From assembly GCA_029964075.1 (NCBI GenBank), contig CM057135.1, forward strand, positions 19,928,863-19,992,862: a stretch of 64,000 bases of DNA, read 5' to 3'. The notes below the pieces were generated by a model. It saw only the letters and a program-made list of their open reading frames with translations. It was not told the origin of the DNA and made no database searches. The stretch comes from Patiria pectinifera (taxonomy: Eukaryota; Echinodermata; Asteroidea; Valvatida; Asterinidae). Below, in pieces: positions 13,035 to 41,389 of the stretch (positions are counted from its first letter, which is position 1; each line of letters starts with the position of its first letter). The translations under genes and the position numbers were made by a program.

Positions 13035-16000
13035 TCTCTCTTCAAAACCCTACAGCAAATCAACATTCATCAGTGCTTCGACAAGGAGAGCAAGAGCACC
13101 AAGATCTCATTGGTCCCCAGAATGAAGACACTGTTGAGATAAACGGAAGATTCTTTACAGCCCTCATAGATTCTGGTTCCCAGATTTCCTCAATCACTGA
13201 CGAGCTAAGAAAGGAACATCCAGAACTGAGAGATCTTGAACTGTCATCCACTGAGATACGTATAGAGGGAGCGAGTGGACACCAAGTACCTTACTTAGGA
13301 GTAATCCCGATCACCCTGACTGTTCTTGGCATCACTTATGAAGATGTGCCATTCTTCGTCGTTCCAGCTGATAACTACCGGAGACAGGTTCCAGTGTTAA
13401 TTGGCACCAACGTTATCCGAGTTTCTAAGAACGACCAGCAACGAGTCAGAGGTGAAGACTTTATGCAGCATTTAAAAGACGAAAACATCACATGGCATAC
13501 AGCTTATGTCAACACAGTAACCCCTGAGTCTAGTGAGAACCCCAGTAGGATGGGATATGCTAGGTATGTGGGTCTGAGACCTAGGAAGATTCCACCTGGT
13601 GAAGCAGTAGACATCATCTGTGAAGCGCCACTCAGTCCAACCGGTCAACCATACACCGCTATCGTTGAAGACCTACCCAACAGTGCGTCGTGTTTAAGAG
13701 TTGCCCATTTAGTAGCTGACGTCTCCCAGAATCGCCGTGTACCGGTACGGGTGTGTAACATATCAGCAAGGCCCATCTTTCTACCAAGGAACTCTCAAGT
13801 GGCTCAGGTATCCCCGATCATCCAATTGGAACAGGTAAACTACCCTCAACCTAGGTCAGCGTCCGAGACACACGAAGTCTTTCTTCATAACCCGTTGCCG
13901 AATCACCAACATCGACCGAGACCTGAAGGAAGTGTAGCATGCGGACACGTCCAGACACATACAGCTGCGGAAGTCAGGCATAAAGAAGTACCTGCCTTAG
14001 ACCTATCCGATGCAACACTAGAAGATGATTTCCAGAGGAGACAGCTGAATAATCTCCTTCAGAAGTTTTCCGACATCTTTTCCAAGGATTCTCAAGATTT
14101 CGGCAGAACTTCGACAGTGAGACACAACATCCCTCTCATCGACGAAATACCTTTCCGGCTCCCTTACCGACGCATTCCACCAGCACTGTACCAAGAGGTA
14201 AAGGAACAACTGGCAAAAATGGAAAAGTCAGAAGTCATCCGACGCAGCTGTTCGCCCTATGCATCCCCAATAGTCGTAGCCCACAAGAAAGACGGCTCCT
14301 TGAGATTGTGTATAGACTACAGGCAACTTAACAGTCGAAACGTCCGTGACGCCTTTCCGCTGCCACGCATTGAAGAGGCATTAGATGCTCTCGGAAATGC
14401 TTCTATCTTCAGTACCTTAGATTTAACTTCAGGCTATTGGCAAGTGGAAATGGAGGAGAAGGATAAACACAAGACGGCATTCACTACCCCTACCGGTCTG
14501 TTTGAGTGCAACAGAATGCCGTTTGGTTTACAGAATGCGCCAGCGACCTTTCAGCGGTTGATGACCTCATGTTTAGGCGATCTGAATTATACCACTTGTC
14601 TTCTGTATTTAGACGATATCATTGTCTACTCATCCACGTTTGAAGAACACCTTGTACGTCTTGAGAAGGTCTTTTCCTGTCTACGTCAACATGGACTCAA
14701 GCTTAAACCATCAAAGTGTAATCTCCTTCAAACAAAAGTCAAGTACCTTGGACATGTCGTCTCTGCCGAAGGTATAGCCACGGACCCTGACAAGATTTCC
14801 CAAGTAAACTGGCCACCGCCCATCACCCGAAAGGAACTCCTTCGCTTCCTTGGCTTCACGGGGTACTGTCGCCGGTTTATCAAAGGATATTCTAGCATCG
14901 CATCCCCACTCTACAAGCTCACATCAGGCGATCCTAGACGAAGGAAGAAGGCAAAAGGGAAGAAGCCAGTACCAGCTCCACCCTACATATGGACAGATGA
15001 GTGTCAAGAGGCTTTTGACGCACTGAAGCACCACATGACGTCTGCTCCAGTCCTAGGCTACGCCAACTACAACCTACCGTTTATACTACAAACTGACGCA
15101 TCTGGGACGGGACTTGGCGCTGTTCTCAGTCAAATTCAGGATGGTAGAGAGAGGATAATAGCCTACGCTAGCAGAGGTCTTTCTTCATCTGAGTCGAGGT
15201 ACCCAGCACATAAACTGGAATTCCTCGCCCTGAAGTGGTCGATTACAGATAAGCTACGAGACTATCTCCTTGGTAGTAAATTCACCGTCCTGACAGACAA
15301 TAATCCTCTACTATACGTGACAACGTCAGCTAAACTGGACGCCACTGGACAGCGTTGGGTAGCCGCACTTTCGCAGTTCAACTTTCACATTAAGTACAAG
15401 CCTGGGAAAAATAACGCAGCTGCTGATGCGCTCTCCAGAAAGCCAGAGTCAAACGCACAAAGAACGTCCATAGAATTCCAGAGAGAAGCCACCACGATCC
15501 CTTCCGATGTCGTCAATGCAATCTGCAATGGTCACCCACCTGAATCGTGTCTGTATGCACAGCCATCGGTAGTCCATTGTCGGATTACGACAAAAACCCA
15601 GACGCAGCCTACTCAGCCATGGAGTGTCGAATTTCCTACCATCTCTTCGAAGGTCCTAGCTATTTCCCAGCGCGACGATCCTGAAATTGGTCCAGCCATA
15701 TTGTTCTTCGAGAGAGGCGAACGACCAACGCAAGCAGAAAAATCCAGACTGCCACCTGGCTGTACTCACTATCTCCGTCAATGGGACAAGCTCTGCATCC
15801 GGAACAACCTCCTCTGCAGAGCAAGGAAATCATCAGATGGCGATGTCTCCTTCCAACTAATCCTACCTCGCCAATACAGAAACACAGCTCTGACATCTCT
15901 GCATAATGATCTTGGTCACATGGGCTACGACCGCACGCTCAACATGGTCCGTGAGAGGTTCTTCTGGCCAAAGATGGCAGATGATGTAAAACGATGGTGT

Positions 16001-22053: not shown

Positions 22054-22647
22054 TTACTTCTTAATGATGGCGCAGCAACGTTCATCGTGTTGGAGGGAGG
22101 AATCGACCATCTTGTAGAACACACTTCTCAAAAGCAGCTTCCGGATGCAGGTGCCAGGTGTCTCCTTAACCAACTGTTTGAGGGATGGTTGTGTGTTTGC
22201 TGATGCCATACTCTGGGGAGTGAACAAAAGTCTGGCTTCAGAGGGATGGCCGTCCCTCCCTGCCCTGCCGACCTCCTGCCAAACCTCGGACGCAGTGGAT
22301 GGGGCTCCCCAAAGGACAACGTACTTAATGTCTTTAATATCAATGCCCATGCCGAAGGCAGAAGTGGCTAGGAGTAGCCTTATTTGAGAATCTGGCCTGC
22401 TGAACTCATTGATAATTCGGTCGCGATCATGACTGGGCCAGCTGGCGTGGAAAAGTTTGACCATTATTTTGGTCCTGTCCGGTTGATTCTCCGAGAAGGC
22501 CTTTTCTTGAAGGTGTTGTCTGATATCCCGGTAGCACTTGCCAAGGGACGCTAAAGACCTTGACACGGAAAAGAAAGTACATGTATGGACTGAAACAGTT
22601 TTTTCTTTTTGTGAAATGCCTGAAAATAATGGGCGCAGCGATGTCAC

Positions 22648-23146
22648 ATTTTAGAGCTTAATGCCAAATATGCATGTTCCGTCGCTTTGTTCTTATTTTA
22701 CGATTACCACAGATGGATAATAAGGAGAGTCTTGACGATTTGCAGAGCACTCAACTCAATAACCGAACCCCCGCTGTGAAGTCTTTTAATAATCTTTACA
22801 TTGTTTACACGCACTTTTCGGACTGTCGTTGCAGCATGCAGCACGGTGCCTTTTTTGATCAAAATGTGAGCGAACAGGCTGTAATATTGAACAGCCGAAT
22901 CTCCCAGTGTTATTTGAAGCTTATAATTATCAATTTTTGGAAAAGAATGATTTACAGTGGGAAAGGTATAGTGCTTGTAATTTTGACGGTTTTCCATTGT
23001 GAAGATTGCACTACTACACTTTATAAAAGTTACTGCAAATTAAAAACGGAATAAAGTAACAGGCCAACAACATAACGATTAAGCGTTGGTTGGTGCGCTA
23101 TAGTTTTGTGCAGTTAGGGTACATAATAACAAGCCACGCCACTTAC
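22648..23146 (-). other. Helicase intron
   Basis: AT-rich sequence between helicase exons, with no independent gene. The donor GTAAGT (complement of 23141-23146) is strong; the acceptor is near 22559. Confidence 0.5.
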
Positions 23147-23272
23147 CCATTGACGTACATGATACATTTCGGGCAGGCCTTCTTACTCTATGTCAGTTTA
23201 TGAAGATACCACTGCATTTCCTGGAGGACATCCATGCCGCTCTTTGACTGCAATCGCAGACTGATGTTGGGC

Positions 23273-23894
23273 CTATAAAAAGTAAGATAAAACCAAACAG
23301 TAATAGTTGATGTCGTGATGTGTATACGTTGAACTTAGTGAACACAATTTAACAATACTTCTGTTATGGGAAATAAATTATTGACTTTGCATGTAATTCA
23401 TTGAAATGCCTGGACTCCTCTACAAATTCTGGGTTTTTTTTTCATTTTGTAACTTTTTCAGAACGCCAAGAATTATCCAGTTGTATGTATGATTCATTAG
23501 CGTCACGCTGCATAATATTATCTTTCAATATTGTTATAGATCAATCAGCAGTTCCAATTTTATAGACGGTTTATGTGAAATATTTCAAAATTAATAGGTA
23601 TGCACTGTGGCTCGTACAGTAACAAAATTAAATCACTTCAGCCTGAAGTCACCAATTTCACGGTATAGGTCAGTTCAGTGCATGGGCTGAACTAAAACAG
23701 CCCTAGTAGTACTTTCTCGCGGTCTTCAAAGTATCCAATAATATTTATAAACATCCCATTTTCTTTGACTTGTATTTCCAAAGTGATGATTCCACTTATT
23801 TAGGAAATTTATACACAAGTGCAATTAGTGGGAGGGGTTGTTGTTGTTACAATAATTGGTGAAACCTTGTAGGGTATACATATATACAATGTAC
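23273..23894 (-). other. Helicase intron
   Basis: About 620 bp, AT-rich; donor GTACAT after the PDRY-coding exon end, acceptor TTTATAG before 23272. Nothing else was seen. Confidence 0.5.
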
Positions 23895-24067
23895 CTGTCT
23901 GGATACTTGAAGACCTCCTCGACGTCCTCACTGTTGAGGCGTAAAGTCGTAAAGACACTGCTTCTTGCCGCTTCAGACATGGTGGCAGTTAGCATCAACA
24001 CAGGCACTTTCTCGAAAAGGCTCCGAAGACGCCCTAATGTTCGAAAAGCTGGTCTGAATCTTTCTCC

Positions 24068-24579
24068 CTTTACAAATGACAAATGATAATTCATTATTAA
24101 CTTCAGTATGTTTGGATTAAGATAATGGGTTTAAGGTAGACGTTCGTCAGTGGTAGACAAAAATTGTTATGTAAGCACAATACGAAGTCAAATATTGTGA
24201 GCTAACTGGCAGCAAAGTTAAACTATCGCCACTTTGATTTATTGCTACACACAATGATGATTTGATATAAATCCAATTTTGGATCACATAACATGGAAAA
24301 AATTTAATTCAATGTCGGATGAACAACAGTTTTTGGTGTGCCTTATGTGGACGGTTCTATTTACATTTCTTTGTTTTTTGGGGTTTTTTTTATATTTGAA
24401 TGCCTTACAAAAACAATCCCCATCGAAAAGTGTCTTAATCGCGTTAACAAGCGTCACTGTAGCAGATAAACAATTGTTGTCCCTTATCCAGGTTAATGCA
24501 TATTATACTGGTAGATTTGTATAATTTCAATAACAGCAAAGTTTGTATATGTGCCTGTCAATATCGATCATTGGCCTAC
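24068..24579 (-). other. Helicase intron
   Basis: About 510 bp with donor GTAGGC after the exon ending at 24580 and acceptor AAAG before 24067. It has short poly-T runs and no supported gene. Confidence 0.5.
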
Positions 24580-24789
24580 CATTCTGCAAGTGTATGAACT
24601 TCGTCAAATGCTAGGATGCACAACTTGTCCCGATACAGTTCTTTGTGGATGTCATCCATCCACACTTCCAGGCCCTCTGGGGAGATAAAGATAATCCTTG
24701 CAGTTCCCTTCTTTAAACCTTCAAAAAATAAGATGAAAGAAAATGAACATACAAAACAAATGCAGTCACTCCAAGAGAGTTTACTCCTT

Positions 24790-24985
24790 TGTACATACAC
24801 CAGTCGACTCGTTATAACAAGGTCGATGAGACTAGCCAGATTACCTCTTTATAACAGGAATGTTGTTATAAAAGGACAGCGAAACAAAGAAACACAAAGA
24901 GAACCTGAGATTTGGGACCTCAGAATTTGCTCTTTATAAGCAGAACCTCTTTATAAAAGTGCTCTTTATAATGAGAGTCGAAAGC
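24790..24985. repeat. Cluster of TTATAA-type repeats
   Basis: Words such as ctcgttataacaagg, acctctttataac and gctctttataa recur in direct and inverted form. It looks like part of a small repeat element. It lies between the truncated helicase and the BEL element, so it may mark the rearrangement that removed both 5' ends. Confidence 0.4.
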
Positions 24986-25051
24986 TGCAGCGTACAGTCG
25001 CATTTTCCCGTGCCTCAACCGAGCGCCATATTGACTCAACCGAGTAATGCG

Positions 25052-25089
25052 TTGCCCCCACCGAGTGCTGCATCGCACGGTGGGGGCAA
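25052..25089. repeat. 12-bp perfect hairpin in a degenerate tandem array
   Basis: TTGCCCCCACCG (25052-25063) and CGGTGGGGGCAA (25078-25089) with a 14-nt loop, within a run of related gcattgccccc...gagcgctgcattgcc units from about 25040 to 25145. Confidence 0.7.
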
Positions 25090-25098
25090 TGTAATGCA

Positions 25099-26220
25099 TT
25101 GCCCCCGCTGAGCGCTGCATTGCCCCCAACGAGCACTGCATTGTCTCAATCCAGTATTGTTGCTCCCCTGCATAGCAGTTCACTTGTGAATTCCTTTCCA
25201 TATATGTATGTGTCCTCTGGACCTACTTTTCTTCCCACATCTGTTTCATTTCCTAATACAGGTACATGTACAGTCGCCACATTGATCACACCCCAGACCT
25301 CGTTTTCACTTGGCACCATAGCACCCCTGGGACACATGTCCGCCTCTCCGTCGGACATTTCCGGTCATCCTATTGCAACCATGCAATCCTCTCGTCAGAT
25401 GGGCGCCAGTCCCACACCGACGGCACTCCTGACCACGCCCATACCGTGTGCACCAGTGCCTGTGAGAACCCAGCCAGTCCCTCTGGCTGGTCTTTTCAGT
25501 GATCAATGGGTGAATTCAGTTTCAACTGGTAAGTCTTCACATGAAACTTCCCGGCCAATCACTCCCCCCATGGAGTCTCCGCCCCCGAAGGGCACATCAG
25601 CAGATCTACCTATGATGGCACCAGTGCCCTGTAGTCCTTCTTTGATGAACCAGATGATGCTAAGTTCCATGCTAGCTGCATCAGCAGGTGGAATAAACAT
25701 GGAAGTACCCCATTTAAATGGAGGTGATCCATCTGAATTCCGGTGCTTCGAAACCATGATCGACGGCTGTATAAAGCCCTTGATACACTTGAGTGAGTTG
25801 CAGAAATACTTCATTGTGAAGTCAAAGCTTAGTGGTCAGCCCAAAAAAGATATTTTGGGACTGGAACGTGACCCAACCCCCTTCACCAAGGCCATGTTAA
25901 CACTAACGCGACTCTATGGTGACATAGGTGTACTCATTCGCGCCAAAATTGAGCGTCTCACCGCGTGGCCGAGAGTAGCAGCAAATGACTCAAAGGGACT
26001 AGTTGAATTTGCCTCAGCAGTCTCCACCCTCATCACCCAACTTGAAACCGCTCCCGAGGGACAGGCGGAGCTTCGAGCTAACTCCACCGCCTGTGTTCTG
26101 TATGGCCGACTGTCAAACCAGCACCAAACAGCTTTCCTGAAGCAAATGGAAGCTAAGCGCATCCATACCTTTTCCTTGATCGACCCGTTGGTTAAAGGAA
26201 ACTGCATCCGTTGCACGTAA
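25099..26220 (+). pseudogene. gag: BEL-1 gag fragment
   Basis: A 373-codon open stretch with a Ser/Thr/Pro-rich N-terminal 190 residues, then the BEL/Pao gag core: HLNGGDPSEFRCFETMID, LQKYFIVKSKLSG and ALTRLYGD-like helices. The start is not determinable (the nominal first codon is TTG inside a repeat array). The frame is lost near 26215, and the coding sense continues in another frame at 26225. Confidence 0.7.
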
Positions 26221-26224
26221 AAAG

Positions 26225-27648
26225 GTGGAACTTGAAGACAGCCTACGAGTCGGCTCCCAAAGTAGCCATGACCATCGTCGACGAGGCGTGTCCACCTACC
26301 ATACCGAGAGTGGAAGCAAGAGCCAAAGCCAGTCGGCTGGAAAAAGTAGCAGCAATCGAAACACATCTGTCAACCAGTCACCAGGCAGTGGAAAGAAGCC
26401 ATTCAGGAAGTGGTGTCCTCACTGCAAAAATGACCACTGGTTATCCCGCTGCAACGAGTTTGGCAAGCTCACGGTAGCAGAGCGATTGAAGTGGATCAAA
26501 GATGGTCGTCGCTGTTGGCAGTGTGCATGCCTGCACAAAGAAGGTCAGAGCTGCGACTTGAAGAAAACCTGCCGGGAGTGTGATCAACTCCATCTCACCA
26601 TCCTTCACAATCTTGTCGCTCAACCAGGCTATGGAGTCTACTACTGCAACTTCAATCCCAATTTTTCCGCCTTTTACAGTGATGGTAATCCATGGCGTCC
26701 CAGAGATGTGAGCATGAAGATCGTTCCTGTTATTCTTTACGGTAACGGGACCCAGCTGAAGACTCACTGTCTTCTAGATGATGCTGCCAACTTTACCATG
26801 ATGTTACCAGAGGCAGTCAGAGCTCTCCGTCTCAAAGGCAAGGCACAGAGATTCCTATAGCCACTGCTCGAGAGGAGTGTACCCCCTGTAAAGGAACCCT
26901 GCTGAAGCTCCAGACCGCTCCCGAAGATGACCCTGACAACAAGACTCTGTTGTCCCAAGTTTTCTCATCCCCAATGCTGCGGCCATCCGAACATTCAGTC
27001 CTAGCTAGAGATCTGCAGAAAAAATGGGCTCGACTAAAGGACCTTCCTCTTCATGACTGTAGGAATGTCCGTCCTCTGATGCTCCTTGGCAGTAACAGAC
27101 CTGACCTGATAGTCCCAATCGAGAGCCACTTTGGCCCAGAGGGGGCACCAGTGGCCGTCCGTACCAAATTAGGTTGGGCAGTGCAAGGTCCCACGCTCAC
27201 CTACAGACGTGGAGGTGGGGTGAATCACCTGCAAGGACCTACCAGCCGTGAAGCCGATGAGGTCCTGCATGGGAATGTCTGCAGGATGTGGCAAAATGAT
27301 GTACAAATGTACAATGAACGAAAGCAGGTGACCCGCTCCAAGCAGGATCAAAGAGCCGTAGATATCCTGGAATCTAAGTCTACCTTTGTCGAGTTGGATG
27401 GTGTCCAGCGGGTAGCAACACCACTCCTGTGGAGACGTGATGGAGACACATTCTCCAGTCCAGCATCCTCAGTTTTGCCAGCTCTCAGAAGAAATGAACA
27501 ACGCCTTCAAAGGGACCCTGATCTTGCTGATGTCCACCGCAAGAAGATTGAAGAACTAAAAGAGGCTCGACTTGTTCGCACTCTGACAGCTGAGGGAAGA
27601 GAGAAATTCACCCAGCGCCAGTGGTATATTCCATACCACGTTGTCAAG
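26225..27648 (+). pseudogene. pol: BEL-1 zinc knuckle, protease and RT N-terminus, interrupted by the RAG1-like transposon
   Basis: 26225-26860 holds the BEL/Pao zinc-knuckle region (CPHCKNDHWLSRC, then CWQCACLHKEGQSC and CRECDQLHLTILH) and the retropepsin-like domain with CLLDDAANFTMM in place of the usual LLDxGS/T, so the active site looks altered. 26950-27660 continues the protease C-terminus (VPIESHFGP, AVRTKLGWAVQGP) and the start of the RT (QRWYIPYHVV-like). The frame runs directly into the transposon at 27653, and the RT resumes at 34306. Confidence 0.8.
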
Positions 27649-27652
27649 CAGA
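27649..27652 (+). repeat. Target-site duplication CAGA, left copy
   Basis: CAGA precedes the left CACGG terminus. The matching copy follows the right terminus at 34302-34305. Confidence 0.85.
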
Positions 27653-27683
27653 CACGGTAGTTCCACTTACATAGCGCGCACGC
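27653..27683 (+). repeat. Left terminal inverted repeat of the RAG1-like transposon
   Basis: Starts CACGG; 13 of the first 16 bases agree with the inverted right end, and ACGC matches again at positions 28-31. The terminal CAC is shared with RAG recombination signals and related transposons. Confidence 0.85.
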
Positions 27684-27782
27684 AAATAAAGTATCGATGT
27701 GCGTTAATTCCTCGTTTATTAACTCCAATGATGTCTATGACGTGTACAACATGGCGGCCCCCGTGCACGGAAAAAAAACGTG

Positions 27783-27789
27783 TATAAAG
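27783..27789 (+). promoter_or_regulatory. Candidate TATA box of the RAG1-like gene
   Basis: TATAAAG lies 130 bp inside the element and 531 bp upstream of the ATG. A YY1-like ACATGGCGGCC lies about 35 bp upstream of it. This is pattern evidence only. Confidence 0.35.
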
Positions 27790-28319
27790 CGCCGACAAAA
27801 TTGTCGAAATTGTACTGTTTCTTAATAAAAACATATAAATTAATGATGAAGGATGATAAAGCGTTGTGTTTTCTTTAAGAAATGAATCAATAATGAGGAT
27901 TATTTGTCTTTAATTATTTGTTACGGTGAATTTTCATCGACTTTTTTCACGTCCGCGGTAAATTTACACGCAGGACGCTGAGATAGAAACGATCGTCAAA
28001 AAGAATAATATCCGGTTTTCTCAAACAAATCAAAATATATATCAGAAAGATCAGTTGATGAAAGGGTTAAAACGATGTATTTTATCGTTAGGACACTTGG
28101 TTATAATTAAAATTCGGACGTTAAACTGTATGCTTTATTTCCCGCGGAACGCGAAGAATTCGAGCTGCCGCTGCACTGGTTCACGGCATGCTACGATTCT
28201 TGTGTGTTAATCGATGCGCGGGTACCAGGTTTGTTCGCTCGGAATACAAACTTTGTTTACAAAGTGATATTCGTTTCCGGGGATTACATATGGGTTAGTT
28301 CCACATTGTTTGTCACAAC
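27790..28319 (+). other. 5' untranslated region of the RAG1-like gene
   Basis: About 530 bp with no open frame, AT-rich, leading to the ATG at 28320 (cacaacATGag). Nothing else was seen. Confidence 0.45.
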
Positions 28320-31300
28320 ATGAGTTTTAAGTTTCATCAAGCATCACTGGGAAAATTCTGCAGAATATGTACAGATAGGCTTCATCCTGGATTAAAAAAA
28401 CCTGCTTGTAAACCTGTCTTGTGTAGTAGTATTCAAAAGGAGATTTATAGTGTATATCGAGTCGGTACGTTGAAAGACACATTAGATCAGCATCCACCTC
28501 ATCTTTGCGAGAAGTGTTCGAGACAGATTCGACATTTTACTGCTGGTACAAGAGACATTGATGTCAACAAACTACGCCTAAATCAAACAATCCAATCGGA
28601 CTGGCCCAAGCACACAAGAACAGGTGATTGTTTTGTATGTGAGCTTGTAACTAGACAGGGGAAAGGGGGCCGGCATTGTTCACAAAAGAAAAAGAAATCT
28701 TCAGTACCATCAACTTCTGTTAGTGAGCATAATGCACCATGTTCATTTAATCGTACTGATGCCAACATCTTTGAACATCTAGATACGTCAAGTCAAGTTC
28801 AAGTACCCATAAGTTTGGACCTAATCAGTGACAGAGGGGAAGGAAGCATTTTCATCTGTCCTATTTGTCAGTGCATCCTAAGCAGACCAGCAGTCCAAAC
28901 TCCTTGTGAACACAACTTTTGTGCCATATGTCTCAGTGCATATTATAAACATTCCAGGAGTGATAGTGTCAGATGTCCACTATGCAATAATCCAACTAAA
29001 TATGGTCAAATAACAAAAAGTTATAAGACTGTTCAGCTGGACAATCTACTAGTTGTTTGTAGCCAGTGCCAAAACATTGGAAAATTGGAGCAACTGTTGC
29101 ATCATCATACATGTACCCCAATCACGAGCCCCATTTCCAAAGTCACTGTCGTAAAAGCCCCACAATGCCCAACCCCAACCAAAGAGCACTCAGCATCAGC
29201 CAAAGTGACTTCGGCAGCAAGAATTCTGAAGGATTTAGCCAACTGCCATAAACCCGGCTCCCCTATACCGCCAATTGTGGAAGATGTCGCGGATAAATGG
29301 ATTTGGCTGAAGCTGAAACGAGACAAGCACCTAACAGCCATTAAAACTGGTGGTCGGGTAATTTTTTTTTAAATTATATACAAATAATCTTAGTACAACA
29401 GTACTGATTGAGTTTCTTAATCCACTTGGACCAAATATTGTTCATTTCAAAATTTAAACAGACATTCACTATAGTTTTATACTTTCATAAATAAATTAAA
29501 TAACATAAACAATAGGCAATGAGTAAAAAAAGATGATTTTCAAAATACAACAAAATAGAAAGCATAAAAATATTAGCTTTTTTCAATTAGGCACAAACTT
29601 CAGATAGATGAAGAGTTTGTGAAAATGAACATTATGAAAAAAACGCTCTATTTTAGCGCAACTACATGTACTATCTATTTATACTAGTTATGGTTTCCTT
29701 TTGTATCTAAACAGCCTGCCTATATACATCAACAAGTTATGTCCAAGAAGGCTAGGACATCTCCAGAAGCAGCTAAGCAGAAGCCCTTGACAACAGAAAC
29801 ATCAATTGTCATGGTGCGAGACTGTCATCTTGCGTGGAATCAGCTGAGGAAATTAAGAAGGTTGGTGGGTATTAGTTATTTAAATGAGCAGCATTATTTG
29901 TAGTGATTCAAAACATTTCATGTATTATAGGGGTTGAATAAAAAGAAAGTATCGTAATGACATCAATTTCATTTTTTTAAATTCCCCAAAACGTTTTTTT
30001 CAGGTACCTGAATGACAACATTCAAAACACCATCCCCTCTGAAAGGACTCTAAGAAAACAACAGAAACTTCTCCTGAAAGACTATCTCCAAGGGGAAATG
30101 ACTGAACTTGTGTTCAACAGTGAGAAAGCTGATGGTATGAATGGGCTTGAAACTCGAGCTGTACCATTTGCATATGTGAGCAACCTCAGTGAGATGGTGA
30201 TAGATTACTTGGATCGGCATGACCGGTAAGAGCATATACATTTGTACTACATGTACATGTAATGACTGAACATGTACATGTCCATAACATGGAATTCACT
30301 GTCACAATGATAAAAAATAATGCCTCATTCAACTCCCCCTTTCAAAGGAATGGCACGTTGACATGGCATCAAGGAGTGATACCCGACGATGAGGTCTGGA
30401 TAAAGATTGGAGGGGATACAGGAGGAACATCTTTCAAGATGGCATTCCAAATTGTGAATGTTGCGCATCCCAATGCCCTGCCCAACACTGTTGTCTTTGC
30501 ATGCTTTGAGGCCAAAGATTCCCTAGTGAACATCGAAAGGGCACTACCACCTACCTTTCAACAGATTGCAAAGCTGGCGATCCATCAAGTGGCAGTAAGC
30601 TGGGTTTTCAGGTTCTATATGTTGCTGTTAACTGTTTTATTCTGAAAAGAAATAAGCAATCAGCTTATTACATTTACATTGCATTTTATTCATCACCACA
30701 GAAACAAAGTTGTATCTTGGACACATACACAGGGGCAGATCCAGGATTTTTAAAAAGGGGGGGGGGGTACTTCCCCCTCCCCGAACCCCCCTTTGGCTGG
30801 CATTTTTACAATGCTGCTGACATTTTTAATTGTTTTTTATTTTATTCTATTTTGTTTTGTAAAAAAAAAATGGCGAGCAGAAAGGTGGGTCCAGACCCCC
30901 CGGACCCCCCCCCCCCCCCAGATCCGCCTATGCATAAACTCAATACAAATGGATAATTAAAAACTATAATTTCCACCTTTCCCATTTGTTATTTATTAGG
31001 CACAGGTCTATCCGTCTATTTTGCTTCGGGGACTATGAGTTGCTGAACAAGATATATGGCATATGTGGATGCAATGGTAAGTTATGGCAACATGTATTCT
31101 CAAAAAGCAAATACAATATTTTGTTTAAGTACAAGGGATACATGTATGCTATACTAACCGAATGACGGTGTATCAGTAGCAGTCGTTCAACTTCTAAGAC
31201 CTTGAGTCCAGTGTGATGAGTTGGTTGGTCACATGAATGGCTTGGATAGCAGATAGCCTGTGGAAATAAAACCATTGGAAAATATTAAGGGTTTGAATTC

Positions 31301-33077
31301 GTATTTTATTTATTTTTATTTCGCAGCTCGCTATTGCTGTATATATTGTAGAGCCAGCAAAACAGCAATGCAGGAACCAATCACAGACAGGGGTCGATGT
31401 TCACCTCGCACACTACAGACTATCGAAGCGAATTATTGCCGCTTTGAACAAGATGGAGGACTGCAGAAGAGATCCAAAGATGTTTCATTCAGCGTTGTAC
31501 ATCGCCCTCTTATGCCTATTGAGATAGATCACGTAAGTTCTAGAAGCACTAAATACATGTAGATTTATTGTTTGACAACCAGTGCAACAGGCCAAATTGA
31601 TCATGAACAATGTTAACTTTTGTCCCCCTTGTCACCAGGTCGTCCTTCCAACATTACATATTTCGCTGGGTGTCTTTAGAAATTGTTCGATGCATTCGAA
31701 TCTGCTTGCCATGGAATTGATGTGGAGTTGTTCCAGCTTCGTGTTGCTGCAGATGACACAGAGCAGGGGAACAACTTTGAAGACCGTATACAATGCGAAA
31801 TCGAACGACAACAGCAAATCATGACAACGCTGGAAGAGAAACGCTCTGAGCTGGATGATGTTGAAGAGGAACTACCTCTACATGTATTGCGAAATGCCAA
31901 AGAAGATATGGACGCCGATTTTCTTCAAATTGCAAACACAGCCTTCAAGCTCCGTGATGAAATTCTGAACCTGGTACTTCTTTCACTTGAAAATAGAAAC
32001 GGGCATCTAATAAATCCCTTACCCAATAAACAGGAAATGCAGGCTTAACACACCTTTCTCTACTTTTCAACAGGAGAGACAGTCTGAAACACTTCAGCTT
32101 CCATTCGCCACTGGACCTGTTGCAAGCAGTCTGGACAAAGTCCTTCAGCAACATCGAGTACAGAGACAGGCATACCACGGGAAGGCGTTTGTTGGCAATC
32201 ATGTCCACAAGTGCTGTGAGGTAAAAGCAAATACATTTTGTACATTCTATAATTACAGAAAGTAACATACTTGACAGTGCTAGGTCTGTTATGCTTGTCT
32301 TGTAATATGAGACCTTTATGCATTGTACTGAAATGAAACTGCATCTGCATTTACAATTTCTTTTTGTTTGTTTGACAGCCCTTTATAATAAAAGCACTTA
32401 CCTCAGCTCCCTCAGAGGTGGTGGACAAAAGCCTGACCGATGACATCCCCTTAGCAGTAGGTGAGAGACTCCGACGTGATGCCGCTCAAATCGGGGTGAA
32501 CTTCAAGGAGCTTTTCTTGAAATCGGGGTAAACTTCAAGGAGCTTTTCTTGAAGTTTGCTGATGTGCACAAAGGCATAAATCACACCTATGCAGTAACAC
32601 CAGATCAAATTCATCGCATTGGTATGTAAAAATACTAAAAATGTTTTGAGGGTTTCTTGGAAATTATTGTTCTCCACTTTACTTAAGACTGGATATAATG
32701 AGCCCTCCATAGCACTTCCCTTAAAATTTCAAATAGCTAATAACAACCATGTTTCCCGACCAACAGATGTGAGTATCCGTGATCTCATGAGCACATATCG
32801 CAGACTACTTCCCACGCAGAGCATCACTCCTAAACTACACCTACTGGAAGACCATGCAGTGGAACAACTGGAACGCTTTCAAGTTGGTTTCGGTTTACTC
32901 AACGAGCAAGGTGAGGAACTCATTCATACCGAATTCAATCAAACTGGGAGAATCGTTCAGGGCATGCGAGGAGAACTCCAAAAGCTGATGTCCATCATGC
33001 GAAGGCACCATATCACCACGACTCCTGAAATCAGCAGGCACCTGTCAAAACCTGAAAGTACACAAAGGAAGGAGTAA
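28320..33077 (+). pseudogene. RAG1-like transposase gene, ten exons, two lesions
   Basis: Exons: 28320-29357, 29715-29860, 30004-30225, 30348-30611, 31006-31076, 31327-31532, 31639-31973, 32074-32220, 32379-32621, 32767-33077. All introns are GT-AG and the phases agree. Ignoring the two lesions, the model is about 983 residues, close to RAG1 (about 1040). Exon 1 holds N-terminal Cys pairs (CRIC at 14-17, CEKC, CFVC), the RING finger CPICQCIL...CEHNFCAICL...CPLC (residues about 180-222) and a C2H2-like CSQCQ...HHHTC finger, in the same order as the RAG1 N-terminus. The core has candidate catalytic D in IGGDTGG (30415), a zinc-binding CCIYC, D in IEIDH (31527) followed by LPTLHISLG, and E in NEQGEELIH (32904-32918). 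Lesions: one base lost near 31680 and a 32-bp tandem duplication at about 32488-32551. It would bind the CACGG ends and cut DNA in the nucleus. Confidence 0.85.
30730..30932. mobile_element. Small MITE-like element in intron 4 of the RAG1-like gene
   Basis: About 203 bp, with ends CAGGGGCAGATCCAGG and, inverted, CATAGGCGGATCTGG, and poly-G/poly-C tracts just inside each end. This matches a widespread hAT-like MITE style. No clear TSD was read. A related fragment may lie at 40491-40665. Confidence 0.5.
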
Positions 33078-33381
33078 AAAAAGATACTACCGACTTCCGA
33101 AATACAATCACTTTGACTTTTGGTGGTACGTGACGCTGATTAATAGGAATGCCTGGCTCCCCGGGCACCATTCCCGCTTAGCGAGAAGTCGTATTTTGAG
33201 CTGAACAGATCAGAAGGATAAATTTGACTTGACATGCTGCAGCATGCTGGGCTTATTTACAAATCATAATTCATGTCAAAATGGTTTCCGCTTTCATGTA
33301 ATTTGTACACCTACGTGTACCATGGATGACGGAGCATGGAGGATTAAAGGTGTGGCAAGTTGAATATTAATCATTTATGTA

Positions 33382-33398
33382 AATAAATGTTAAATAAA
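33382..33398 (+). terminator. Polyadenylation signals downstream of the RAG1-like gene
   Basis: AATAAA occurs at 33382 and 33393, about 305-320 bp after the stop at 33077 and inside the transposon. Confidence 0.5.
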
Positions 33399-33399
33399 A

Positions 33400-34270
33400 T
33401 GGTGTAAATAAATATAACATATTGCATGATGAAATTGAATCCCCATGAAATTTAATTTGATTGCATACATGCAAGAGTCGTTGAGCATGACGACATGTAC
33501 AGTACATGAACATAAAACGTATAGCGCAATGCACCTACCCCACGACTGTTTCATGTTCCGTAAGCGCAAGTGATTGTTTCGTGCTCTGTTGTGTTTAACG
33601 AAAATTAAAATGCCCATCATGCATATCAAGACACAACTAACGTTCTCAGAATTGGCTAAAATTGAAAACAGATCACTTGTTCACTTACCTAGTTTTTTCG
33701 AAGGTCCTGTCTCTGCTCCCAACGGATTGCGTGCATGGTGCACGCGACGCGACCGCGTGACTTGACCACGTTGTTGACGAACGGCAGCTAGAAATGTACA
33801 GTAAACTTAGGCCAAAAAATAATGAACGCGACCTGTCCTAGAACCCCTGTCAGTATTATCATAAAAACTAATCATCATTTTAGTAATCTGTTGATGAATA
33901 TAACTTCAGAAAACCGGATTTCTGTTTAAATTTTACGATTTTCAACGGCTGACGCGACGACAGAAATCGCGCGGAGTCATAACAAACTGGTACCGCGTCA
34001 CGAGCGAAAAACATGGCGAAAGTTCTTGTTACCATGCCAGGGAAGCACGCAGTCTAGCCGACTAGCCGGGGATAGAGCTTCATTCAAGACTTCCAAAGCC
34101 TTATTTGGTCACTGTTGCATTATTCACGACCTAGACCTATGATATCAGGCGAGGTTCGCGGGCTATTTAAATTCCACTAATGGAAACAACGGCTCAAGGC
34201 ACGCCCTGAATAATGAGACGCGCTTAGCAGTCACGTGATTTAGGCACTATCTATAAATAACCAACAGAGG
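33400..34270. other. 3' non-coding part of the RAG1-like transposon
   Basis: About 900 bp with only short open stretches in any frame; no kelch repeats or second gene. CpG-rich words appear between 33730 and 34220. Confidence 0.65.
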
Positions 34271-34301
34271 GCGTACTTTTTTTACAAGTGAAACAGCCGT
34301 G
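34271..34301 (-). repeat. Right terminal inverted repeat of the RAG1-like transposon
   Basis: Read inward on the minus strand it starts CACGGCTGTTTCACTT, followed by GTAAAAAAAG. It pairs with the left end at 27653. Confidence 0.85.
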
Positions 34302-34305
34302 CAGA
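34302..34305 (+). repeat. Target-site duplication CAGA, right copy
   Basis: CAGA directly follows the right terminus ...CCGTG. BEL-1 pol coding resumes in frame from here. Confidence 0.85.
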
Positions 34306-35891
34306 ATGGTAAACACAGACTGGTGTTTAACTGCGCCTTTCAATATCTGGGCGAGTCTCTCAATGATCATCTCCTCCCAGGCCCCACACTTGGCTCCACT
34401 CTTGTTGGAGTCTTGTTGAGGTTCCGTCGACACCTTGTAGCCATCTCAGGAGACATAAAGACCATGTTTCACCTCACCCTTGAAGAAGACAGATCAGCGC
34501 TTTGCTTTCTCTGGAGGGAACTTGGATCCACTGCTGAACCAGATGAGTTGGAGTGGAATGTCTTACCCTTTGGGACAACGTGCAGCCCTTGTTGCGCCAC
34601 ATATGCTCTCCAGAATCATGTGAGAGATATGATCCAGGAGCCAGACGTAACCAGAAGTGTGCTGGAAGCATTTTACGTTGATAACTGCTTGGATGGCAAA
34701 CCAACTGCCGGAGAAGCGAAGGAGTTGGTGGAGAAGTTGGTCCGATCATTAGGTTTAGGTGGGTTCCCTACTGTCAAGTGGGCCAGCAATGTCCCCTCTG
34801 TAGTGAGTGATCTCCCTCTAGAAGCTTGCTCCAACAATGCAGAGTGCTGAATCAACCTGAGTGGCAATTCCCCAGAGGAAGCAGCCCTGGGGCCGAGGTG
34901 GAACTTAAGGGATGATGCCTTGACGTACCAGCTCTCTCTGAAAGACTGGCCAACTCCGACAAGACGAACTGTACTTAGTGATGTCATGCAGTGCGCTGGC
35001 AAAGACCCACTTGGATACCTTATGCCCTATATAGTCAGAGGCAAGATGTTGCTGCAGGAGCTATGGAAACAGCCTTTGGGTTGGGATGATGGGATCCCTG
35101 ATGAAGGAGATGAAGGGCTACGAGCGCAGCACATCCAATGGCGAGAAGAGCTCGTCGATTTATCCAGTATTCACCTCCCTAGGTGCTACATCCCATCTCA
35201 CTTTGAGCCAGACCTTGTCAAGTATGAGCTACACGTGTTCACCGACTCCTCTGAAAAGGCATATGGTGCGGTGGCTTATTTAAGAGCTACAGTTCCGTCG
35301 TCTGAAGTCAGTGTGAGGTTTGTGATGTCCCGCTCACGGCTGGCTCCAAAGCGTGTCCAGACCATACCTTGCCTGGAACTCCTAGCAGCTGTTAGTGGAG
35401 CCGAGTTGGTGGAGCTGCTAGAAGACGAAATGAAGATGAAGATGCCAATCACTTGTTGGAGTGATAGTACAACAGTGTTGTCGTGGATCAAGTCAGAGTC
35501 CTGCCGTTACAACCGATACATTGGAGCACGAATTGCTGAAATTCAGAGACTTACTGACCACACAGTGTGGCGGTACGTAGATTCAGCAAACAATCCAGCT
35601 GACGACCTCACCAGAGGGTTGAAACTGAGTCAGTTGGGTGACAGCAGCCGTTGGAATTCTCCGCCATTCCTGCTCCCCCCAAAGGAGCAGTGGCCAGTGC
35701 TCCCGACACAAATTAAAGGTGAGGAAGCCGATGCTGAACTCAAACACCAGGGATTCACTGCACATACCGTCGCCTTAGCCATGCCTGGTCCAGCCGTGGA
35801 CCTCACCCAATATGCCGCCTGGGACGACTTAGTTGGGGTTATTGTGCTGCCGTTTGTGAGTTCAAGGGAGAGCCGAAGCCTGACTTTATGA
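34306..35891 (+). pseudogene. pol: BEL-1 reverse transcriptase and RNase H, continued
   Basis: Resumes with GKHRLVFNCAF, GESLNDHLLPGP, AISGDIKTMFH (first catalytic Asp), CFLWRELG and LPFGTTCSP. The catalytic box reads FYVDNCL where BEL/Pao RTs have YVDDCL, so the second metal-binding Asp is replaced by Asn. A TGA at 34848-34850 interrupts the frame before 34920. RNase H motif HVFTDSSEKAYGAVAY and ITCWSDSTTVLSWI follow (34920-35891). The frame shifts again near 35890 at the integrase boundary. Confidence 0.85.
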
Positions 35892-37302
35892 CAGCAGATC
35901 AGCGTTTGAAAACTGAGGGTCTCCTGTACCAACGAGTACAAACTGACAGCTTTTCTGAAAAAGTTGCTGCTCTTCAGGCCGACAAAAACGTTTCCCCGAA
36001 GAGCCGTCTTGCCAGCCTTTCCCCAGAGCTCGATTCCGATTGTAATCTCATCCGAGTTGGAGGAAGGCTCCGTTGGGCGCAATCACTGGATGAGACAGTG
36101 AAGCACCCAGTTGTGCTTGACCCGAAGCACCCCATCACTTGCCTCCTCATAAAGGAAGCTGACAGTCGTTTGGGACACTGTGGAACTGGAACAGTTCTGG
36201 CTGATCTGCGCCGCAGATTTTGGGTGTTACGAGGACGCCAAGCTATCCGTGGCTTACAGAGCCGTTACAGAGCCGTTGCTCTGGCTGTCTGAAGAGACGA
36301 GGAAGACCATCATTACCAAGGATGGCAGATCTTCCGCCTGCTCGTCTCAGGATCAGTGAACCCCCATTCTATTCCACCGGTGTGGACTGTTTGGGACCCT
36401 TTCATGTCTCCATCGGACGACGCAGTGAACAACGCTGAGGAATCGTCTGGAAATGCATGACGACCAGGGCTGTTTACCTTGACTTGTTAGAGTCTCTTGA
36501 CTCTGATGCTTTTCTGATTGCCTTCAATCGTTTCCGATCTAGGCGTGGAACTCCTCATGAAATCCTATGTGATAATGGGACCAACTTCAAGGGAGGCCAA
36601 ACCAAAATAAAAAAAGCTTATGAAGCCATGACTCCCAGCCTCAAGGAGAAGCTTGCCAAGCATCAGGTATGCTTCAAGTTCAATCCCCCTTCTGCGCCTC
36701 ATTTTGGTGGCACCTGGGAGAGGGAAATACGGTCTATGAAGTCAGCCCTCTATGCGATTCTTGGCAACCAGACTGTTTCCCCAACGGTCTTGTACACGAG
36801 TCTTACAGAGGTTGAGGCTCTGATCAACTCAAAACCGCTGAGTTACATCTCATCCGATGTCGCTGATCCAGACCCTATAACGCCCTTTATGTTGGTCATG
36901 GGGCGGCTTGATCATGCGCCTCCTCAGTTGGTGTATCCCGACAGGGACGTACTTAGTCGCCGCCGCTGGAGACAGTGCCAGGTTTTGATGCAAAGGTTCT
37001 GGAAAGAAATTATTCAGTCCTACTTACCTGCCATGAAGGCCCCTCAGAAATGGAGAGGTGAAGCAGAGAACCTGAAAGCCGGCGACGTAGTTCTCATGGT
37101 TGATCCTCAGCAAGCGCGTGCCTCATGGCCGTTAGCAAAGGTTGTCGAGGCGCTACCCGGGGTTGATGGTCGAGTCCGTGCCGTCAAACTGCAGGCTGAT
37201 GGTCGAGAATACGTCCGCCCTGTCGCCCGCCTCATCCGTCTGCCAGCCGAGCCAGAAGTCAACCCACCTGATGGTTCAGGCCCCAAGCCTCAGGAGGCCT
37301 AA
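35888..37302 (+). pseudogene. pol: BEL-1 integrase
   Basis: 35888-36292 has the N-terminal zinc region (HPITCLLIKEADSRLGHCG). An 11-bp tandem duplication of ttacagagccg at about 36251-36272 throws the frame, which resumes at 36220-36438 with CSGCLKRRGRPSLP and VDCLGPFHV (first catalytic Asp). A TGA at 36436-36438 follows; then 36457-37302 has CDNGTNFKG (second Asp), APHFGGTWEREIRSMK (catalytic Glu) and a C-terminal domain with AGDVVLMVD and VRPVARLIRLP. This is the BEL/Pao integrase type (DUF1759-DUF1758-rve family). Not functional. Confidence 0.85.
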
Positions 37303-37473
37303 CCAATTTAAAGCTTGAGTTCTATCAAGTCTATGCCTAACCTCAATTTTACCTGTTGTCTTTAAACCTTTTGCCTTTTTACCCTTTGCCATATCTTTGG
37401 CACCTTAAGTACTTGTTGTTTACCTGTTGTTAAACCTTTTGTGACGTTTTTGTAAACTGCTACTCTCAGTTTA

Positions 37474-37483
37474 GGGGCGGCTG
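37474..37483 (+). promoter_or_regulatory. BEL-1 polypurine tract
   Basis: ggggcggct lies immediately before the TGTTGAG start of the 3' LTR. BEL-2 has the same gggggcggc before its 3' LTR at 57142. Confidence 0.65.
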
Positions 37484-38117
37484 TGTTGAGAAAAGTGCCA
37501 CCGCTATTTAAAAGGGCGCCACCTTGCGGCGCGATCCAAACGCGTGTGTAAATGGTCAAGCGTCGGCAAGCCGAATTAGGGGAAAACCATGGCCGGGTAA
37601 GGATGGTGAGGGCATCTTTTTCCCTTATAATAACTGTTTATGATTGTTTATAGTGTAGTTCCAATAATTAGATGATCGATTCTTATAATGAGATAATATT
37701 CAGTTGTTAATTCTGGTTCAAATCCTTCAATCACAAAGTGTCGGAATTACACGTAGGTAACGAACATTGATCCACCGTATATATGAGTGAATGTATATAC
37801 GAGTGAATGTACGTGTGCATGTATTTAGGTTTTCGACATCGTGTTTCTTGCCCTTGTTTAATTCTTTCATTGTTTCCTTGTTACCCTTCAGAACGGGCTT
37901 ACCACTGCCAGGGTTATTGGACTTACGGGCTTATTATGGGCACTCCTCCCAGTTTAACAAGGGCTACCACGGTGTTTACCAGGGCTTTTTATCTACATCA
38001 CTCATACATGTACTGTGTGTACTTTCCAAGCCAAGAACTTGATAATAAATGCACCGTTTCATCTACGCCCAGTCTCTCCACCGGTCACTTCCTTTCCCCC
38101 TTTGCCATTCCACAACA
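37484..38117 (+). repeat. BEL-1 3' LTR (about 634 bp, single copy)
   Basis: Begins TGTTGAG after the purine tract and, as proposed, ends CCACAACA (inverted TGTTG/CAACA). It contains AATAAA at about 38044. With no 5' LTR for comparison the end is inferred. A minus-strand exon of a different gene lies 36 bp further on. Confidence 0.6.
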
Positions 38118-38349
38118 GTCTGATTCATAAAAAGGATAGAAAAGTGACTCACATTTCCATCTTCAAGTAGACGTGGGTAACGGTCTTGTATCTCTGCAAC
38201 TGATCCGTCATCTTGTTTTTGTCTTATCCACTCATACCGTGACCAAGCAGTTTCCAGCATATATTGTGTGCACTGCCTCTCTGGCCCTTTGTTATGTTTC
38301 ATCCATTCCACCCGCTCATGTTGTTCTTCATTTGAGAGCAGCACGTGTT

Positions 38350-38893
38350 CTACTCAGCAAAACAAAAAAAAGAAATTGCAAAAAATAAAAATCAACCTTG
38401 CATGATAGTTACCTTCCCAGTGTTGTAGTTCTTGTACTTGGTACTCCAATGTCAGAGTACTCGTACTCGTAATGACGGTACTCGTACTCGGGCAGCAAAG
38501 TACTCGTACTTGACATGTCAAAATTGTACTGGATCATCAAAGCACTCGTATTCAAATAGCAGTACTCGAAAAAAAAGGTTATAGCGCTTACCACGGCCTT
38601 AATTTATTGATGCTTTCAGTTTTAAATGGTTGATTGCGGAGAAATCGAAGTTTGTACGCACGTACGTCCAGACGAACGCAATTACCAGCTAGCCGTGACT
38701 GGGTCTCTATCTAAATGGGCCTGGGCCAATTATGCACTAATAATTCAAATCATTTAATTGAAAAATGCTTACAAAGACGATCCCTAGTTTGTATCACAAG
38801 TGATTAACAGTTCACATAATTTTCAGTTTATTTGTTTAAATGATTTGTGTAGCAAATTATATTAAGAAACCCAACAGCTACCTGGAACTTGCT
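38350..38893 (-). other. Intron of the companion gene
   Basis: AT-rich, with a cluster of tactcgtact/gtactcg words at about 38430-38570 (degenerate tandem repeat of gtactcgta). Nothing else was seen. Confidence 0.5.
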
Positions 38894-39980
38894 AACGAGC
38901 TTGTGGTTGTTTGTCTTCTTTGGGAGCTTTTTTGTCCTCTGAGTTGTCATGAAGCAAAGTTTTCCTTATGTACCGCAGACGATCCTCGATGTAACCACTC
39001 GCAGGTCTCCCCTTCTTCCCTTTAATGTACCAAAGTTCCTGTTGCAATACTTGGTTTAAAAGAAAGTTCTCTAGGTTTATTCCCATGATGAAATGGGCTA
39101 CTAATATTTCAATGAAACAGAGAAAATAAACACATACATACTGTGACGATTAACAAAGTAAGTTTTAAATGAAAAGAATTAAGCATGGAATCTATGAACA
39201 TCTGATCCCTTAAATTGCCATTAAAAGTCCATTTCTCCGTGAAAATAATCTTTAAGAGATGTTACACAGACATTTACATTGAGCTTATATAATAGAGGAC
39301 TAATCCTGTAAGGGTGTTTTCACAGTTTTTAATGACCCTGGTCACTGAGGATTATAATTGGTTATAAACATAAGGGTACACTGTGTCTATCTCCATGGGT
39401 AAACAAATGACTTTCTAAAGGGTGTTTTCACGGACTCTTAATCTGGCTTAATATGTTGAAAAATCCGTAAAAATTTAGTTGACAGTAACTTCAAGGGAAA
39501 ATGGCTCTTTAACAAATTTTTCAAGAATGAAGATGTTCATAGTATGGCCCCACTGGGCTAAAAGAGGCAGTCTGTCTGTGATGTTATCCTTGCCAACAAA
39601 ATTATACCCAAGAACATAAGTTCCATGACGTATTCAAGCTGTTTTTTTAACTTGGTTGTCAAGAAAGGATTATATACACCTTTAATTCAAGTCACAAGAA
39701 CTAATAATAAAATCTTGGAGAAAACCTTTCGGATGAAGTAGTATGAAGAGCTTTTTATTCAAGTACCGAGTATTGACGAGTGCTTAGGTTGCGAGTACGC
39801 ATTTTTCATTTGTATTATTATAGAGAAAACTCACATAGTCAGTCTCTCCTTTGGGATCACCAAGGAACGGGAACGTATCCACAAGATTTGATGCCATGGT
39901 CTCTTTGATGAAGGCTGATGGGCTATGAGGATGAGAATTGATACAAATCTTAATCCATATTTTACATTTACAGACCATGT

Positions 39981-41389
39981 TCAGACACCATGTTAGCTAA
40001 AACGGTAAAAGTTAAAACGGTCGCTCATCACATACGGGAGGTATCCAGACATCGTTTTAAGTGTAGCAAAGTTAACTCGAAGTAGTTTATCTCAATTTCT
40101 AAGGTCATGTAGAACATCCGCCTCTGCTAAAACTGCGCGCTAAAAAGAGCCTTTACTCTTCCATTTTTACAGTTTGCTACACATGGTCTGAGCCCCTCAC
40201 CGTGTGATGTGATGTGTGTTGCCATGCCGTGTTTGACATCGCAGCCTCGGCCAGTCATGTATGGCACGCCGGTAAACATGACGACAGTCTCTTGTCCACC
40301 GCGGCGATTTGCCCATTTTTTTGGAAGTATCGTACATCGGTCTTAATACGCCATTTCAGATAAAAAAAAATTGCATTAGCAAAAAGAAGGATTGTGATGT
40401 AAATGCGAACGGTCTCCCCCTAAAGAAGAAATAGCCGTGACAAGGATGCATTAGTTAATATAGTGGGAATGATTTTAGGATTTTATTGCCGGGGGTTGAG
40501 CCCCCCACGCCCCCACCCCCCATTGATTTTCGGAGGCCTAAGTGTCTTGAAAAAATAACAGGTCAACATTTCAGCACGCCTCCCTGAAAAAAAATCTGGA
40601 TCTTCCGTGCTGCCCCCCCCCAAAAAAAAAAAAATATTGGTTCTAGAACCGCGCCTGTGCCATTTGTGTTTATATTTTGGGGGTTATTCTCTGTACCTTT
40701 CGTGGCGCAAAAAGACAAAAAATGTTCTGAAAAGTTGTTTAAAAACCATGTGTTCGAAACGACGTCATTGAACAGATTTCTCTCACAGCTTACTGTGTCA
40801 ACTTGCCCGCACTTGTCAGTCACGTGAAAATACAAGTGATATTAACGTTGCAATATTGACCAATCAACGCCAAGGTTTTCCTGGTAGTTGAGTATATTAG
40901 TGTATTATGATAATTATACTCCGGTTAGCGGTTGTTGCGTTGGCATCTACATATACACGTTTGTCAGCGCATCGTGAGTCTAGTGTGAGAGTACGAGTGA
41001 GCACGATGTGAAACTCGGACCATGTGGTCAGAAAACTTGCGGAAATTGGACTTGAAATTTGATTTGATTTTTGTACGATAGGAGAATTTGGACATTGTTT
41101 GCTTAATACAAAAGTACGCCACGGAGAAGGCGTTACGTAACTCCAGGTCACTGCGCTGGCTAAAACGGGCAGCCTTTTAGCATAAACCGTTCAGACATCG
41201 TACTAGGAGATAAATTTGTTCTGGTTATTCGCTAAACCCTCCCTCCGAGGGGGTTTAAAATGCCGTTTTATCTTTGAGTTTAACTCGGATTCGGTTTAAA
41301 TAAAAAAACGTTCAGACATTGTTTTAGCAAAAAAGTTACACTGAATCGAGTTCAACCGGTGTTTTAAGGGAATTTAAAACGGTGTCTGA
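39981..41389. mobile_element. Candidate non-autonomous TIR element in a companion-gene intron
   Basis: The left end TCAGACACCATGTTAG and the inverted right end TCAGACACCGTTTTAA agree over about 12 bases. Related subterminal words (cagacatcgttttaa, cagacattgttttag) recur near 40050, 41190 and 41310. The 1.4-kb interior has no transposase. No clear target duplication was found. Confidence 0.4.
40491..40665. repeat. Poly-G/poly-C low-complexity repeat
   Basis: Contains gggggttgagcccccc, long C runs, a run of 13 A and the perfect palindrome ggttctagaacc at about 40641. Similar in style to 30730-30932. Confidence 0.5.

Follow-up and report, generated by a model that had tools for sequence, protein, structure and literature searches.

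Introduction

Chapaev DNA transposons are described, in the excerpts of the literature that we draw on throughout, by target-site duplications (TSDs) of 3-4 bp, CAC/GTG ends, a catalytic Asp-Asp-Glu (DDE) triad, and C(2)C, LH and H(4)H motifs (PMC4079192). Two Chapaev subgroups carry a Chapa region followed by a RING finger, as RAG1 does, an architecture already described in PMC4411706, which cites Kapitonov and Jurka 2007 for Chapaev elements with Chapa and RING. RAGL elements consist of RAG1L-RAG2L pairs with 5-bp TSDs (PMC7204232), and Transib likewise has a 5-bp TSD (PMC8355894) and, in the excerpt of PMC4411706, no identifiable domain outside its core. N-RAG-TP of Aplysia is described as a mobile element made entirely of RAG1 N-terminal-like sequence (PMC8355894). 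Here we consider a 64,000-nucleotide stretch of the sea star Patiria pectinifera (the window; C7:19928863-19992862, where C7 is the 44.85-Mb contig CM057135.1), in which a transposon of about 6.6 kb at 27653-34301 lies within the pol gene of a BEL/Pao retroelement. Positions are those of the window unless a contig is named. We are highly confident that this transposon is one decayed copy of a Chapaev element of the Chapa-plus-RING subgroup; it is related to RAG1 by common descent at the superfamily level, and is not the RAG1-RAG2 transposon itself.

Results

Ends, target site and interrupted host gene

The transposon opens with CACGG and closes with CCGTG, and its two ends, written as CACGGCAGTTYCAC, share 14 of their first 19 bases as terminal inverted repeats. 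The features of the insertion are these, ORF standing for open reading frame:

25048..37302, + strand: ORFs of the host BEL/Pao element, in several frames and split by the transposon (Pfam domains; the limits given mark where the ORFs end and not where the element does)
27649..27652, unstranded: left TSD, CAGA (window letters and paralogous empty sites)
27653..27671, + strand: 5' terminal inverted repeat, CACGGTAGTTCCACTTACA (14/19 match to the 3' end; other copies have the same boundary)
34283..34301, - strand: 3' terminal inverted repeat, read on the - strand, CACGGCTGTTTCACTTGTA (14/19 match to the 5' end; 3' end also matched elsewhere)
34302..34305, unstranded: right TSD, CAGA (window letters and paralogous empty sites)

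Joining 90 bases from each flank with a single CAGA kept restores an open frame, WYIPYHVVKQNGKHRLVFNCAFQYLGESLND, which we take from its motif to be a BEL/Pao reverse-transcriptase stretch. The corresponding site is unoccupied in all three of the closest other BEL/Pao copies found among 150 scored of 279 candidates (L039, L040 and L041, with left-flank identities to the window of 98.5%, 98% and 96.5%). At each of them the flanks abut with a 4-bp overlap, reading CAGA, CAGA and CAAA respectively, which is direct evidence for a 4-bp TSD. An earlier note on this DNA had thus placed both ends, the CACGG inverted repeats and the duplicated CAGA correctly to the base; its continuous host frame holds as well, and the empty sites that it proposed to look for in the same genome exist. 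Elsewhere in the host element, Peptidase_A17 (Pao), DUF5641 and DUF1759 score above the Pfam cut-off and RVT_1 and Integrase_H2C2 below it, while no direct repeat of at least 60 bp (14-base seeds) was found in 22500-40000 to serve as long terminal repeats for dating.

Sister copies with the same ends

The first 148 bases of the transposon match 39 places in the genome including the window, 37 of the other 38 from base 1, and the last 150 bases match 27 places. That 38 other places share the 5' end indicates that the ends are not a product of chance. Among 18 loci fetched through their 5' matches, 17 have CACGG at the expected start (the exception is L024) and nine have a recognisable 3' end, eight of these nine being flanked by an exact 4-bp duplication (GTTA, TGGA, TGAA, TTAA, TTCA, AACA, TGCT and GCCG). 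In the full-length copies L042 and L043 the duplications are TCCT and GGAG, and in all, 11 of the 12 copies with both ends found, the window copy included, show an exact 4-bp TSD. CACGG...CCGTG is common to the window element, eight aligned non-autonomous copies, L042 and L043; the 3' end of L026 reads CCTAG. The search for further copies that the earlier note suggested was therefore productive, and the same ends recur in other copies.

Two sister families have ends of the window type. One is a young non-autonomous family of about 4.5-5.0 kb (L010, L012, L013, L016, L017, L018, L022 and L025), with exact ends, no transposase detected and a mean identity of 96.2% over 28 pairs (range 88.8-99.4%). 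The other is a full-length family of 7.3-8.0 kb with the exon layout of the window copy (L026, L042 and L043), whose members, each with frame breaks, share 96.7-98.2% identity where they align. Against the short family, the window copy reaches only 72-76% identity over its 5' end, so it is older or belongs to a separate lineage. Matches to its read-through transposase occur in two of the 18 fetched loci, over nearly the entire length in L026 and as a last-exon scrap only in L019; one ORF of L017 resembles, by eye, a further scrap of transposase, and L020 (6.7 kb) has a second, internal 5' end.

A single gene, broken in three places

The transposon carries a single gene of about ten exons (28320-33076), delimited by AG/GT-bounded open frames and homology, and its exon layout recurs in L026 and L042:

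28320..29357, + strand: exon 1; start codon, Chapa/RAG1-type zinc region and RING (open frame, GT donor; RING Pfam; homologue profile)
28359..28682, + strand: Chapa zinc region, RAG1 N-terminal and importin-binding-like (limits by eye; homologue profile-profile match to RAG1L N-termini)
28857..28985, + strand: RING finger (PF13445 and PF00097 above cut-off)
29715..29860, + strand: exon 2 (AG/GT open frame; conserved in L026 and L042)
30004..30225, + strand: exon 3 (AG/GT open frame; also in L026 and L042)
30348..30594, + strand: exon 4; first catalytic Asp (IKIGGD), D codon 30415-30417; Pfam DUF1280; frame break near the 3' end
31000..31076, + strand: exon 5; second catalytic Asp (FGDYE), D codon 31031-31033 (aligned to RAG1 D708)
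31327..31532, + strand: exon 6; C(2)C zinc ligands CIYC, 31338-31349 (aligned to RAG1 C727/C730)
31639..31973, + strand: exon 7; LH motif TLHISLG, 31651-31671; frame break near 31679
32074..32220, + strand: exon 8; GNHVHK
32379..32621, + strand: exon 9; frame-breaking 32-bp tandem duplication, units from 32488 and 32520
32767..33076, + strand: exon 10; H(4)H HLLEDH, 32838-32855; catalytic Glu EQGEE, 32904-32918; stop (aligned to RAG1 H937/H942 and E962)

With its frame broken three times, late in exon 4, within exon 7 and at the exon 9 duplication, the window copy is no intact source of transposase. An intact autonomous element is accordingly rejected here, and L026, L042 and L043 are broken too; the word complete, which the earlier note used of this transposon, suits its ends and not its coding frame. 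When 17 further ORFs of at least 70 aa in the element were scanned, none gave a Pfam match above cut-off to a RAG2-like domain or any other, and there is thus no sign of RAG2, in line with the earlier description of one RAG1-like gene of about ten exons without a RAG2-like partner. Intron 4 also contains, at 30720-30930, what looks by eye like an insertion, one arm holding a run of G and the other a run of C; it may be a small mobile repeat.

With the exons read through and X placed at the breaks as query, 18 of 4435 candidates match the transposase at E<=0.001. The best are two uncharacterised Asterias amurensis proteins, P0001 (49% over 99% of the protein) and P0002 (48% over 100%), which are known from protein records alone and are predicted at full length, in contrast to the broken gene in the window. 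Next come Amphiura filiformis, Lytechinus variegatus, unnamed records and EukProt records, the last presumably from sponges. In a 16-row tree of the window protein and 15 of the 18 homologues, three partial ones being left out, the window groups with four echinoderm proteins (100/100), and the Lytechinus row forms a long branch. Pfam finds RING (PF13445, PF00097) and DUF1280 in the window protein. RAG1_imp_bd (PF12560) scores above cut-off in four of nine homologues scanned (P0004, P0007, P0008 and P0009) and does not do so in the scan of the window protein itself.

Kinship with RAG1

Exon 1 of the window matches the RAG1 RING at E 6e-4 in a single-sequence search in which the RINGs of BRCA1 and TRAF6 score higher, and we therefore reject the RING alone as proof of RAG1 kinship. 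An 18-row homologue profile ranks full-length mouse RAG1 at the top (E 1.1e-31, profile columns 5-268 on RAG1 102-404), and its columns 5-102, which lie ahead of the RING, match a RAG1 chain at E 9.4e-15. Aligned profile to profile, the N-termini of 14 homologues and 17 RAG1L proteins score 284, whereas 40 shuffles never exceed 20.1. As judged by sequence comparison, it is only the wider N-terminal profile, and not the RING alone, that is specific to RAG1.

The core match is weaker. A 15-row core profile aligns with a 38-row RAG1/RAG1L core profile over 348 columns with a score of 53.4 (P 7.5e-6), where the controls peak at 27.5 (60 column shuffles), 33.8 (60 block shuffles) and 17.0 (reversal). 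In that alignment the second Asp, C(2)C, LH, H(4)H and the Glu fall on RAG1 D708, C727/C730, the ALHCD stretch, H937/H942 and E962; the first Asp falls on D600 in the global profile alignment only, at the edge of the RAG1 segment. These residue numbers derive from the match of a RAG1 core sequence to RAG1 595-1006. A structure model of homologue P0002 places its residues 373-985 on RAG1 460-1008, at about 16% identity in the structural alignment. The model gives structural support for a RAG1/Transib fold of the Chapaev core besides the RAG1-like N-terminus. The RAG1-like nature that the earlier note had ascribed to the gene is upheld by the N-terminal homology and by the core fold predicted in homologues.

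A chromosome block crowded with Chapaev

We define the block as the first 24 Mb of C7, 3.9% of the assembly, a limit chosen after the data had been viewed. A search with exon 4 gave 91 matches (all 103 candidates scored) that merge to 84 loci, 59 of them in the block, 12 on C22, six on C20, one elsewhere on C7 and six on other contigs. The block also holds 33 of the 39 5'-end and 21 of the 27 3'-end matches. The corresponding counts are 36 of 150 loci for BEL/Pao (150 scored of 279 candidates) and seven of 66 loci, merged from 110 matches, for piggyBac (116 of 122 candidates scored). Fisher odds ratios for Chapaev exon 4 are 7.5 against BEL/Pao (p 8e-12) and 20 against piggyBac (p 5e-14), p values that are only descriptive since the loci are not independent. 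The block is rich in several kinds of element and far richer in Chapaev.

Other features of the window

Two further retroelement pol ORFs lie on the + strand, one at 12902-17386 (1494 aa, open, with protease, reverse transcriptase, RNase H and integrase domains) and one at 50586-52166. On the - strand, ORFs at 23825-24848 contain the words LTATMS and DEVHTLAEW, which are reminiscent of a RecQ-type helicase; a Pfam scan of one piece, 24579-24848, had no match at E 1e-4.

Discussion

The Chapaev hallmarks given above all have their counterpart here: a 4-bp TSD (CAGA in the window); 5'-CAC...GTG-3' termini; GGD, GDYE and EQGxE aligned to RAG1 D600 (in the global alignment only), D708 and E962; and CIYC, TLH and HLLEDH for C(2)C, LH and H(4)H. 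The Chapa-then-RING order ahead of the DDE core is seen through the homologue profile on the RAG1 N-terminus together with the RING Pfam match, not through a Chapa model. We find no architectural difference from Chapaev with Chapa and RING, a likeness drawn from published descriptions. HzTransib, in contrast, has a 5-bp TSD and no N-terminal Chapa or RING, where our element has a 4-bp TSD, a Chapa-like region and a RING. N-RAG-TP is likened by description only, in that both have RAG1 N-terminal-like mobile sequence (PMC8355894, in part). The earlier ordering of relatives by architecture, with N-RAG-TP/Chapaev elements nearest and Transib, ProtoRAG and RAG1 more distant, stands as regards Chapaev. 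In the titles and abstract openings surveyed, Chapaev is unreported from a sea star; most subscription papers and Repbase Reports fall outside that survey, which is thus no proof of novelty.

At the same time, several points weigh against this assignment. Filing the element under Chapaev follows published hallmarks, and the comparison with Repbase Chapaev is by description, not by alignment or tree. The exon limits were placed by eye from GT/AG and homology, and the structure model is that of P0002, not of the broken window protein. A phmmer search with exons 2-9 of the window (512 aa, lacking exon 10 and the last part of exon 9) hit no chain in the PDB at E values up to 10, and the core profile reaches only P 0.046 against a single RAG1 sequence; as a yardstick, the accepted HzTransib reaches only E 0.0057 with RAG1. 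Among the copies, L025 is flanked by a 6-bp repeat, ATATGC, and not by 4 bp, and nine of the 18 fetched loci yielded no convincing 3' end by pattern search.

Could the element instead be a RAGL/ProtoRAG-type transposon of the RAG1L lineage that has lost its RAG2L? It resembles such elements in its RAG1-type N-terminus, seen in homologues together with a RAG1-fold core, and in its DDE triad, C2/H2 zinc ligands, CAC ends and single gene. Yet RAGL elements have RAG2L and a 5-bp TSD (PMC7204232, in part), while here the ORFs of at least 70 aa give no sign of RAG2 and the TSD is 4 bp in 11 of 12 copies; its core is only about 16% identical in structural alignment; and beyond CAC its ends look by eye unlike the protostome RAGL consensus in the excerpt of that paper. 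A RAG1L protein search (best 8000 candidates, 47 matches listed) returned none of its homologues, and the reverse search with its own protein returned nothing with a RAG1-core domain. A whole-genome search with the RAG1 family profile PF12940 hits five places, all of them outside the element: C7:13017885-13019549, C7:5681019, C7:40842313, C7:41403910 and C21:13982476, four of the five on C7 and the best match in the genome at E 4e-71 with one stop. The genome probably also contains RAG1L remnants, then, separate from the window element. On the TSD, the lack of any RAG2 sign and the PF12940 search we reject RAGL/ProtoRAG identity, and we regard the RAG2L-loss scenario as very improbable. The claim in the earlier note of a direct view of the transposon class linked to the origin of V(D)J recombination was overstated: the element is not of the RAGL/ProtoRAG class, its architecture had already been described, and the gene here is disrupted.

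A host gene domesticated from a transposon would account for a multi-exon gene with a RING domain, and is hardly credible beside the terminal repeats, the TSD, the empty sites, the frame breaks and the many related loci. Another alternative is a chimera, in which a RAG1-like N-terminus sits on an unrelated core and only the N-terminus is related to RAG1. The N-terminal profile score of 284 lies far above the core score of 53.4, and a recombination story has been told for N-RAG-TP (PMC8355894, in part); set beside these are the core-profile score above all its controls and the modelled fold, and we consider a chimera unlikely. Under the Chapaev reading that we favour, an intact transposase would bind the element ends, excise the element through a RAG/Transib-like DDE active site (codons 30415, 31031 and 32916), perhaps cutting through hairpins, and join it to target DNA at cuts staggered by 4 bp. 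The coding capacity of the window copy would have been lost afterwards by mutation.

As for the crowding on C7, plain segmental duplication is disfavoured because flanks and TSDs differ between copies, and local hopping is not accepted as the sole cause, since the closest BEL/Pao copies, which are not local hoppers, also lie in the block. The crowding may stem from local reinsertion, from target preference or from slow loss of elements if the block recombines poorly. Rather tentatively, and with more doubt than belief, we suggest that the block at about 0-24 Mb holds diverged Chapaev lineages that have been kept there, or have gone on reinserting, for many generations of the family, and that RAG1-like remnants share the contig.

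Regardless of how the copies came to be crowded, the window provides a Chapaev element whose ends are known to the base, whose target site is seen empty three times and whose sister copies are many, and it fits the published view that the Chapa-RING-core architecture is older than the RAG1-RAG2 transposon. The concentration of Chapaev in one block is a separate, testable observation on where elements insert or survive. If the suggested history of the block is true, it would be a place to watch Chapaev and RAG-type transposases reside together and re-mobilise non-autonomous kin, and it would also suit exchanges of N-terminal domains, such as have been proposed for the origin of RAG1.

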